A stretch of DNA of 64,000 nucleotides from an uncultured Spirochaetaceae bacterium (GTDB lineage: Bacteria; Spirochaetota; Spirochaetia; Sphaerochaetales; Sphaerochaetaceae). The notes under the pieces are model-generated. The model worked only from the letters and a program-made list of their open reading frames with translations, had not been told where the DNA came from and made no database searches. Location: assembly GCA_944389015.1 (NCBI GenBank), contig CALXKS010000065.1, forward strand, positions 1 through 64,000. The letters run 5' to 3'. Positions 7,772-24,208 of the stretch are shown here, one piece after another. Numbering within the stretch: position 1 is the stretch's first letter; every line of letters starts with the position of its first letter. The translations under genes and the position numbers were made by a program.

Positions 7772-7862
7772 ATTTTGCATAATTATTCGCAGGCGTGCAT
7801 ATGAAACATTGAATGAAAAAATCGCTTCAGCTATATTCATAACTATCCTTCAGGGAGGTTTT

Positions 7863-8864
7863 ATGAAAAAACTATTTGCTCTTATGGCTGTTCTTATTGC
7901 TTCCTTCGCACTCATCGCAGGAGGAAGCCAGGAAAGCGCAGATGACGGAACTGTGCTTATCGGTGTGTCGAAGCTTCTTTCCCACGCGGCTCTTGATGCT
8001 GTAGAGGTTGGAATGCAGGACTACCTTTCAGGAACAGATATTCCTGTCCGCTATGATTTCCAGAATGCTCAGGGAGACATCTCCACCGCAGCTTCCATTG
8101 CTCAGCAGTTCAAGAGCGAGAACTGCGATATAGTCCTTGGAATCGGAACAGCATCAGCACAGGCTCTTGCGAATATCTTCTCAGACAGGCCCGTTCTCTT
8201 CGCAGCTGTCACAGACCCCGCTTCAGCAGGTCTTGTCGCTGACAACTATGCAGCTGACCCTGAAAGCAATGTCTGCGGCGTCTCCGATATGAATCCTGTT
8301 GAGGCTCAGATCGAACTCCTTGCCGAGATCACAGGGGCAAAGACAATCGGAAACGTATACTCCTCCGGTGAGCAGAATGGCGTCGTCCTGATGGAGCAGG
8401 CAAAGGCTGCCTGCGAGAAGCTCGGCCTTGAATTCGTCGAAGTCGCTGTAGCGAACTCCTCGGAGGTCATGATGGCAACACAGTCGATCATCGATCGTGT
8501 CGATGCGATCTATATCGCTACGGACAACAATGTCATCTCCGCCCTTGCAGCTGTCGATGATGTATGCACAAAGGCAGGAAAGCCTCTATTCTCCGCAGAT
8601 CCATCTGGCGTAGACGGTCTCAACTGTCTGATCGCATGGGGATTCAACTACAACTCAATCGGTGTTGAGGTCGGAAAGCTCATTGAGAAGATCCACAACG
8701 GAGAGAATCCAGGATCCCTCGGAACAGTATTCCTCACAGATCCTAAGGATTTCGAGCTCTGGTTCAACCTCGATACAGCAGAAGCTCTAGGTCTCACGAT
8801 TCCGCAGGATCTACTCGACTCTGCTGCCGTAGTCATCCAGGACGGAGTGAAGACAGAGAAATAA
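7863..8864 (+). CDS. ABC importer substrate-binding protein 2 (COG2984 type)
   Basis: The gene encodes 333 residues from the ATG at 7863, chosen because GGGAGG lies just upstream and a signal peptide (MKKLFALMAVLIASFALIAG) begins there. It shares long blocks with the preceding gene (SKLLSHAALDAVE, GDISTAASIAQQFK, AQALANIF, VANSSEVMMA), so the pair is a tandem duplication. The lipobox position reads LIAGG with Gly instead of Cys, so it is not an ordinary lipoprotein. The divergence in the ligand-binding half suggests two related substrates. Confidence 0.88.
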   Translation: MKKLFALMAVLIASFALIAGGSQESADDGTVLIGVSKLLSHAALDAVEVGMQDYLSGTDIPVRYDFQNAQGDISTAASIAQQFKSENCDIVLGIGTASAQALANIFSDRPVLFAAVTDPASAGLVADNYAADPESNVCGVSDMNPVEAQIELLAEITGAKTIGNVYSSGEQNGVVLMEQAKAACEKLGLEFVEVAVANSSEVMMATQSIIDRVDAIYIATDNNVISALAAVDDVCTKAGKPLFSADPSGVDGLNCLIAWGFNYNSIGVEVGKLIEKIHNGENPGSLGTVFLTDPKDFELWFNLDTAEALGLTIPQDLLDSAAVVIQDGVKTEK

Positions 8865-22250: not shown

Positions 22251-22835
22251 ATGGGAAAGATTAAAAGCGCATGGGAAATTGCCCTTGAGAAAACAGAGGG
22301 CATCACGATAGATAAGGATAAGTTCCGCCATGGAGAGGAAGTCTCCAGGGCCCGCCGCATTGCAGGTTCATATCTCACAGGAGATGAGACAGATGCAGCA
22401 AAGCTGAAGAAAGAACTTGAAGCAGTTGATCCAGCAGCGAGGAAAGAAGCTCTGACAGCTTCAATACTCTCTTCTCTATCCCTTCCGCAGGAGGAAGTCG
22501 TAGATGGCAGATTCGAGAAGACAAAGACTCTGGCGTCAATTGCCTCCGATGACGATCCGAACATCATGGGACTTGTAGGAGAGCTATCTGATTTCCTCAT
22601 GCAGTATCCTAAGCACAGAAAGGATCTTGTCGAGAAGATGAAAGAGCAGTTCAGGCCTGTTCTTGAGGAGAAAGAGGCAAAGCTCCGTGCCCAGTACGGA
22701 CAGGATGTGCACATTGCCCCTGAGAGTGACAAGGAGTTTCTCGAGGTCGCATCAAAGAATCTTGAAAGATTGCAGGCCCAGTATGATGCTACGCTCCAGA
22801 ATGCGAAGAAGCAGCTTCAGGATATGCTCTCATAA
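22251..22835 (+). CDS. Spirochaete-type conserved hypothetical protein
   Basis: The 194-residue soluble protein is highly charged and almost wholly helical, beginning MGKIKSAWEIALEKTEGI and ending in a Gln-rich helix (ERLQAQYDATLQNAKKQLQ). I believe similar proteins are frequent in spirochaetes, but I cannot assign a function. No signal or membrane segment is present. There is no SD, so it is a leaderless candidate, and the gene stands alone between divergent TRIC and the RNA gene. Confidence 0.75.
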   Translation: MGKIKSAWEIALEKTEGITIDKDKFRHGEEVSRARRIAGSYLTGDETDAAKLKKELEAVDPAARKEALTASILSSLSLPQEEVVDGRFEKTKTLASIASDDDPNIMGLVGELSDFLMQYPKHRKDLVEKMKEQFRPVLEEKEAKLRAQYGQDVHIAPESDKEFLEVASKNLERLQAQYDATLQNAKKQLQDMLS

Positions 22836-22874: not shown

Positions 22875-22902
22875 TTGACAGCTTGCTATTCTATGATAGG
22901 AT
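22875..22902 (+). promoter_or_regulatory. Promoter of the unidentified RNA
   Basis: TTGACA (22875-22880) and TAGGAT (22897-22902) have a 16-nt spacer. The predicted start is near 22909. Confidence 0.65.
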
Positions 22903-22908
22903 GTAATC

Positions 22909-23146
22909 AGGAACAGGGATAGAAACCCTGGAGAAACGAAACGGAAGCTCCCTGAAGCGTCCGAAAAGAACTTCGTCCCTGCGGGGACAGAACAACGCAG
23001 GTGAGTAAACCTGCAAGGGCAAAGCTCTTTGATACCCCTTAAGTATCAGAGCAGTCGGGTGGCCGACTCAAAAGAAACACTTGCTCCGTTTAAATTCATA
23101 ACTTCGGAGCGTAGAAAAGACTGTTCGGCAGAGAACAGTCTTTTTT
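22909..23146 (+). ncRNA. Unidentified multi-hairpin RNA, about 235 nt
   Basis: No ORF fits, yet the segment is packed with stems. These are CAGGG/CCCTG (22914-22930), GTCCC/GGGAC (22975-22988), GCAGGT/ACCTGC with a GAGTAA loop (22997-23014), an interrupted 10-bp stem at 23024-23052, AGTCGG/CCGACT (23053-23068) and GCTCCG/CGGAGC (23083-23110). AAACGGA (22939-22945) can also pair at long range with TCCGTTT (23085-23091). It has its own promoter and terminator, and the next gene is on the other strand, so it acts in trans. It lacks the marks of tmRNA, SRP RNA and RNase P RNA, and does not fold as a 6S rod. Confidence 0.7.
23115..23146 (+). terminator. Intrinsic terminator of the unidentified RNA
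   Basis: AAAAGACTGTTC pairs with GAACAGTCTTTT (12 bp, 6-nt loop) and a T6 run. It is also symmetrical enough to stop the trpS operon from the other side. Confidence 0.85.
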
Positions 23147-23227: not shown

Positions 23228-24208
23228 TCAGATGACTACATGCATCTTCTCTTTGATCTCTGCGATATTCCTGTTGCCGATCTCATTGGCCTTTGCCGTG
23301 CCGGACTTGATGATATCCCTCACCTCATCCTTATGCTCCTCATAGTAGTGGCGGCGTTCACGGATAGGATCGAATATACTGTTCATCTTCTCAGCAAGCA
23401 GCTTCTTGCATGCAACACATCCTATTGATGCATTGCGGCACATCGATGAGACATTATCGCACTCCTCGCTGTTGAAGGCCTTATGATATGTATAGACAGT
23501 GCAGACATCGGGATTGCCAGGGATCTTTACGGAAATCCTGTTTGTATCGGTCACAGCATTCCTTATCTTGCCTGCAAGCACTTCCTGGCTATCTGAAAGA
23601 TATACAGCATTGCCCAGGCTCTTTCCCATCTTTGCATTGCCATCAAGGCCAGGCAGACGGGAAACGGCGGAAAGCTTATACTCAGGCTCTGTTATCGTTG
23701 TTCCATAGAGATCATTGAACTTCCTGACGATCTTCCTCGAAAGCTCGATATGCGGAATCTGATCCTCCCCTACAGGAACGAGATCCGCATTGCAGAATGT
23801 TATATCCGCAGTCTGTGAGACAGGATAGCCAAGGAAGCCATATGTCAGCTCCTTATAGCCATAGTTCTTCGCTTCGGTCTTGATCGTAGGGTTATGCGAA
23901 AGCTGATTGACTGTGACGATCATTGAATAGAATATCGTCAGCTCCGCAATAGCAGGAATCATTGACTGCTGCACGAAAGTAACCTTCTCCGGATCAAGTC
24001 CTGCGGCAAGATTATCGATTGCAACCTGATAAATCGAGTCATTGATCAGCTCAGGATTATTGAAATGCGTTGTCAGTGCCTGCACATCGGCAAGAAGGAT
24101 GAACTCCTCATAGTCATCCTGCAGTGCCACACGCTGCGAAAGAGACCCGACATAATGTCCGAGATGCAGATGCCCTGTTGTTCTGTCCCCTGTCAGGATC
24201 CTTTTCAT
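23228..24208 (-). CDS. trpS: Tryptophanyl-tRNA synthetase
   Basis: The 326-residue class I enzyme charges tRNA-Trp. The HIGH-type motif is HLGH (residues 15-18), GEDQ lies at 147-150 and the KMSKS-type motif is KMGKS (193-197). The length is normal. It is the last gene of the ileS-lipoprotein-fmdB-trpS operon, overlapping fmdB by 4 nt. Confidence 0.95.
   Translation of the reverse strand: MKRILTGDRTTGHLHLGHYVGSLSQRVALQDDYEEFILLADVQALTTHFNNPELINDSIYQVAIDNLAAGLDPEKVTFVQQSMIPAIAELTIFYSMIVTVNQLSHNPTIKTEAKNYGYKELTYGFLGYPVSQTADITFCNADLVPVGEDQIPHIELSRKIVRKFNDLYGTTITEPEYKLSAVSRLPGLDGNAKMGKSLGNAVYLSDSQEVLAGKIRNAVTDTNRISVKIPGNPDVCTVYTYHKAFNSEECDNVSSMCRNASIGCVACKKLLAEKMNSIFDPIRERRHYYEEHKDEVRDIIKSGTAKANEIGNRNIAEIKEKMHVVI

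Follow-up and report, generated by a model that had tools for sequence, protein, structure and literature searches.

The DNA analysed here is a stretch of 64,000 nucleotides (the window) from Candidatus Ornithospirochaeta, a genus of uncultured gut spirochaetes for which 48 genomes were compared. An RNA gene of about 235 nt is located at positions 22909 to 23146 on the forward strand, the position of its 5' end being an estimate based on the promoter. This promoter (22875-22902, forward strand) is composed of the -35 hexamer TTGACA at 22875-22880 and the -10 hexamer TAGGAT at 22897-22902, and a TG at 22894-22895 makes it an extended -10 promoter. The gene ends in an intrinsic terminator (23115-23146, forward strand) made up of a 12-bp hairpin, with its stem at 23115-23126/23133-23144, and a T run.

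Both neighbouring genes lie outside the RNA. The upstream neighbour, at 22251-22835 on the forward strand, encodes a DUF6657 protein. The downstream neighbour is trpS (class I tRNA synthetase, W/Y type), which occupies 23228-24208 on the reverse strand and is therefore convergent with the RNA, as the first-pass annotation of this DNA had stated. That annotation described the intervening region as an unidentified, trans-acting RNA with a promoter and terminator of its own.

Promoter, terminator, and distribution of the RNA

In the window copy, the promoter hexamers match the consensus at 10 of 12 positions. Such a match is at chance level by itself, with 3 sites found and 3.0 expected from shuffles. 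The promoter is nevertheless credible because it is conserved across homologues. TTGAC is found in the same place in 26/26 homologues, and the -35 hexamer has a mean pairwise identity of 94% among them, compared with 33% for the 40 nt upstream. A promoter and a terminator, as described in the first-pass annotation, are present in all homologues, and the terminator stem is retained with compensatory changes. The longest internal frame beginning with ATG, GTG, or TTG in the window copy is 13 codons. When frames are compared across copies, no ORF is common to the homologues, in agreement with the earlier description of a region that has no ORF.

A DNA search of 60 genomes found matches in 12, including the window's own genome. 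Two covariance models were also used: R1, which represents the 3' core, and R2, which is free of the terminator and covers hairpins H2 to H7. R1 identifies the RNA in 26 of the 48 genus genomes (the window's and 25 others) with E-values of 5e-30 or better, and R2 recovers the same 26. Each of these genomes has one copy; in G007, what looks like a second copy is the same locus repeated where contig ends overlap. A 27th match within the genus (G020) is weak, at 20 bits, and is not found by R2. The remaining 22 of 48 genomes have no trace of the RNA under R2 with permissive filters, where the best score is 13 bits. One genome without a match, G023, groups with RNA bearers and is 79% complete.

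Outside the genus, R2 matches none of the family's 91 other genomes. R1, run over 395 genomes drawn from the class, gives only weak out-of-genus matches of 18-31 bits, and these were rejected; in those that were aligned, the part that matches well is the terminator hairpin. A 26-base motif made up of H6 and the adjoining linker was searched in one genome per species across 84,980 species. It is found at 25 loci, all of which belong to uncultured Spirochaetaceae or Spirochaetales metagenome-assembled genomes or to Candidatus Ornithospirochaeta stercoravium and stercoripullorum. The viral contigs scanned contain no match to the RNA. The family is restricted to one part of one genus, and this distribution does not support the earlier suggestion of a housekeeping-like RNA.

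DUF6657 is encoded in 46/48 genus genomes, whether or not the RNA is present. At a completeness of 90% or more, every genus genome (24/24) has one, again with or without the RNA. In many genomes the RNA adjoins DUF6657. In four others (G028, G004, G065, and G070), approximately 0.9-1.8 kb of other sequence lies between the two, and in five (G008, G009, G018, G029, and G069) they are on separate contigs. The downstream gene varies as well: it is trpS in the window and encodes malic enzyme in G018, G009, G063, G016, G028, G004, G065, and G070. Because the malic-enzyme gene is commonly downstream in RNA-bearing genomes, the old order in this group was probably DUF6657 - RNA - malic enzyme. In genomes that lack the RNA, the sequence past DUF6657 reaches the next gene directly, and in many of them a convergent gene starts about 10-120 nt after DUF6657. 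This convergent gene was identified as malic enzyme in L087 and assigned by likeness in the others.

When presence of the RNA is placed as a label on the DUF6657 protein tree, 3 changes are needed, compared with 15.8 in shuffles. The pattern fits vertical inheritance, as read from a single-gene tree that is poorly resolved at depth. Since the RNA is kept while its flanking genes, upstream and downstream, vary from genome to genome, action in trans is likely, as had been proposed for the window copy.

Secondary structure and covariation

The earlier reading of six or more stable hairpins is borne out, as seven are recognized, all on the forward strand. H1 (22914-22930) pairs CAGGG at 22914-22918 with CCCUG at 22926-22930. 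H2 (22942-22963) has a stem at 22942-22949/22956-22963 with strong covariation and carries the nearly invariant loop CCCUGA(A) at 22950-22956, which reads UCCCUGA in the window copy. H3 (22975-22988) is formed by GUCCC and GGGAC, and H4 (22997-23014) by GCAGGU and ACCUGC around the loop GAGUAA. In a pseudoknot stem, S1 (23017-23038), GGG at 23017-23019 would pair with CCC at 23036-23038 in the H5 loop. H5 itself (GAUAC 23031-23035/GUAUC 23043-23047) lies inside the stem S2 (23024-23052), which is formed by GCUCU at 23024-23028 and AGAGC at 23048-23052. H6 (23053-23068; AGUCGG/CCGACU, loop GUGG) is the most conserved element and is followed by an A-rich linker (23069-23082) that leads to H7 (23083-23110). 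H7 is closed by GCUCCG and CGGAGC and has the conserved loop motif UCAUAA.

A 239-nt stretch has a folding energy of -85.2 kcal/mol, compared with -62.1 ± 4.7 kcal/mol for shuffles (z = -4.96; 0/200 shuffles as low). Among the homologues, 26 copies were read from promoter to terminator, 24 were aligned whole, and 23 were aligned from H2 to H7. In the latter alignment (A3), standard pairs make up 88.8% of the cells at 47 proposed pairs. Changes on both sides are seen in 23 of these 47 pairs (16.7 in shuffles) and in 93 cells (29.0 in shuffles). The covariation score is 0.283, compared with 0.145 ± 0.009 after shuffling (0/500) and 0.047-0.072 when the pairing partners are slid. The structure was drawn from one of the aligned sequences, and related sequences can exceed shuffles; for these reasons, most weight goes to the control with slid partners and to how many pairs are changed on both sides. 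RNAalifold, run without the proposed structure, recovers H2, H5, H6, H7, and the terminator, with 20 pairs changed on both sides. The covariation analysis of homologues that had been recommended as a check supports the structure.

The individual elements differ in how they are supported. H5 is 100% paired, with both-side changes in all five pairs. S1 is paired in 92% of cells with both-side changes in one pair only, so a pseudoknot between GGG(G) and the CCC(C) of the H5 loop is likely and less than proven. The H6 stem is invariant in sequence across the 23 aligned genomes except at its closing pair; its pairing therefore rests on complementarity and one varying pair. Conservation coincides with exposure in three places: the H2 loop (CCCUGAA), part of the A-rich linker, and the H7 loop. 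In H2, the loop has an unpaired probability of about 0.87 and contains ACCC in most homologues and UCCC in the window copy. The loops of H1, H3, and H4 and the sequence of the linker drift among subgroups, and the H3 loop of the larger subgroup contains AGGA.

Across the genus, the RNA is approximately 230-350 nt long. Two copies, L108 in G018 (647-943) and L121 in G025 (1178-1522), have a 5' part that is longer by about 60-110 nt and forms different hairpins; their 3' core is unchanged, and the CCCUGA motif is present.

Three further features were considered. The first-pass annotation proposed a long-range closing pair between AAACGGA (22939-22945) and TCCGTTT (23085-23091). The two segments are complementary in the window copy, but the helix was rejected as a structure because it is not conserved: its three outermost pairs are kept in only 5, 5, and 4, respectively, of the 24 copies aligned. 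It is also incompatible with H2 and H7, both of which covary. For a kissing contact between CUGA in the H2 loop and UCAG in the H7 loop, one side is invariant, and copies with UCAU are not fully complementary. The sequence GAUACCC, which we take to resemble the 790 loop of 16S rRNA, was dropped as a likeness; its stem changes with compensation in homologues, e.g., in G068.

The locus has the properties of a stand-alone trans-acting RNA, namely its own promoter and terminator, a conserved structure, no conserved ORF, and no fixed gene partner. Sequence comparison makes it nearly certain that this is a real, conserved RNA, encoded by a stand-alone, single-copy gene for a structured transcript under its own conserved promoter and terminator. 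The RNA is predicted to be transcribed on its own.

Proposed function and rival explanations

The function of this well-established RNA is one that we infer. The leading proposal, held tentatively, is that it is a structured RNA specific to this lineage that acts in trans without Hfq, most likely by regulating mRNAs through the invariant exposed CCCUGAA loop. The parts of this proposal differ in strength. Action in trans is very probable, given that the promoter and terminator are the RNA's own, that its neighbours change, and that its fold is conserved. That mRNA pairing through the H2 loop is the main mode of action is a tentative reading of the conserved and exposed loop. Hfq (PF17209) is detected in 0/48 genus genomes with positive controls, which a self-sufficient structured RNA fits, and an Hfq-dependent small RNA was rejected for the same reason.

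In the proposed mechanism, the RNA would be transcribed independently and would act in trans without Hfq. Its rigid fold would display the nearly invariant, C-rich H2 loop, perhaps along with the H7 loop and the A-rich linker. Pairing would begin at the H2 loop, with the G-rich ribosome-binding regions of mRNAs as partners, and would change the translation of these mRNAs in the manner of the UCCC loops of staphylococcal RNAs. In Staphylococcus aureus, accessible C-rich loops of RNAs pair with Shine-Dalgarno regions (PMC3861533). The H5 loop is likewise C-rich; it would be tied up in the pseudoknot, from which it could be released.

One stretch of 10 nt, CTTCAGGGAG, is perfectly complementary to the H2 loop and lies over the ribosome-binding site of an ABC_sub_bind gene. 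This gene encodes a substrate-binding protein, starts at 7863, and is a candidate target. The ribosome-binding site at 7848-7863 of the window reads CTTCAGGGAGG and includes the 10-nt complement. The complement CTTCAGGGAG is retained in G026 in a comparison that covered this near-identical genome only, and ABC_sub_bind is regarded as a lead only. At ribosome-binding sites, TCAGGG is found in 3/257 genes of RNA-bearing genomes and in 0/122 genes of RNA-less genomes, and two of the three are the same gene in near-identical genomes. There is no clear enrichment of H2-loop complements at the ribosome-binding sites of these 257 and 122 genes. Within the window, TTCAGGGA is frequent in any case (18 sites, with 3.3 expected from shuffles), an excess that perhaps comes from codon usage.

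The main rival is a protein-binding RNA, whose fold would serve as a platform for sequestering or modulating a protein, as 6S RNA and CsrB do, but with another partner. This explanation is possible, and it is almost as likely as mRNA pairing because H6 is invariant and the H7 loop is fixed. What is invariant in the H6 stem is its sequence and not merely its pairing, and the H7 loop, UCANAA, is nearly as fixed. Stems this invariant in sequence are more to be expected where an RNA makes protein or tertiary contacts than where it acts by antisense pairing. The structure is also more elaborate than the minimal one usual for antisense small RNAs, as these are defined in PMC11109978. The 6S RNA model (RF00013) has no match in the 48 genus genomes, which leaves room for such a role. 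The RNA, however, does not form a rod with a central bulge as 6S RNA does, CsrA (PF02599) is undetectable in 48/48 genomes with positive controls, no partner protein is established, and no protein family is shown to co-occur with the RNA. A CsrA sponge of the CsrB type was rejected, since CsrA is not detected and the window copy is without repeated AnGGA loops. It is unlikely that the RNA represents a novel class of structured RNA that binds protein, or acts globally in some other way, and has assumed a regulatory role in a lineage where Hfq, CsrA, and 6S RNA are not detected.

The remaining explanations carry less weight. A cis element that controls DUF6657 or the convergent gene, as a long 3' structure or an antisense region, would account for the many genomes in which the RNA adjoins DUF6657 and the several in which it is convergent to malic enzyme. 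It is improbable, as the TTGAC of the RNA's own promoter is conserved throughout, the RNA is separated from DUF6657 in four genomes and on another contig in five, the downstream gene varies, and DUF6657 persists where the RNA is missing. The pseudoknot and conserved loops recall the anatomy of ligand-sensing or catalytic RNAs, but a riboswitch-like domain or ribozyme acting as a free RNA would be surprising here: no expression platform follows in the sense direction, several loops and the linker drift among subgroups, and no Rfam riboswitch or ribozyme matches. A mobile or selfish RNA element, or a part of a CRISPR, retron, or transposon system, could explain why the RNA occurs in only part of the genus and why the neighbour genes adjoin without it elsewhere. 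The single copy per genome, the agreement of presence with the DUF6657 gene tree, the scanned viral contigs, and the neighbours examined, among which no reverse transcriptase or nuclease gene was recognized, make this very improbable. Short frames of up to 34 codons do occur in some homologues, yet they differ among genomes in start, length, and sequence, and many indels are not multiples of three, so that a dual-function or coding small mRNA is hardly credible.

This is a well-supported new RNA family in uncultured gut spirochaetes without detectable Hfq, CsrA, or 6S RNA, and it could show how regulation proceeds in a lineage of this kind. An Rfam entry could be seeded from the alignment, structure, and model, which would also enable searches of metatranscriptomes. 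The presence and absence of the RNA within one genus lets the origin of a structured RNA be studied.

Comparison with known RNAs and regulators

A search for known families, also recommended by the first-pass annotation, was made with Rfam 15 on the window and eight homologous loci. It gives only chance-level matches, all below the gathering cut-offs, also at a low threshold. The RNA had been described as lacking the hallmarks of tmRNA, SRP RNA, RNase P RNA, and 6S RNA, and none of these matches at the locus. The first three are found elsewhere. tmRNA (RF00023) is at G000:C13:7489-7857, and ARAGORN finds none at the RNA locus. Bacterial SRP RNA (RF00169) is at G000:C56:41422-41519 with 66.5 bits. 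RNase P RNA (RF00010) is found as partial matches, two of its three pieces being at the start of contig C1, and the gene was probably split by assembly. Pieces of RNase P RNA below the Rfam cut-off are at G000:C1:3-184 and G000:C83:18270-18388.

As far as Rfam 15 and the literature searched show, the RNA is a previously unclassified, stand-alone structured bacterial RNA. It is like the orphan structured RNA candidates described in, e.g., PMC8632094 and PMC11109978 in being intergenic and defined by covariation, with function unassigned. A word search of the main texts of these two papers gives no sign of it.

Among RNAs of assigned function, 6S RNA is likewise stand-alone, structured, and of similar length, but it is a rod with a central bulge, whereas several separate hairpins are present here, and its model does not match. 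CsrB and CsrC share with the RNA several hairpins and purine-rich loops, including the AGGA that the larger subgroup has in its H3 loop; unlike them, the window copy is without such loops, and it belongs to a genus in which CsrA is undetectable. The staphylococcal Rsa family and RNAIII (PMC3861533) belong to another phylum, have no Rfam relation to the RNA, and differ from most homologues, whose loop contains ACCC. They are nevertheless like it in being stand-alone and structured and in exposing a C-rich hairpin loop, with UCCC in the H2 loop of the window copy.
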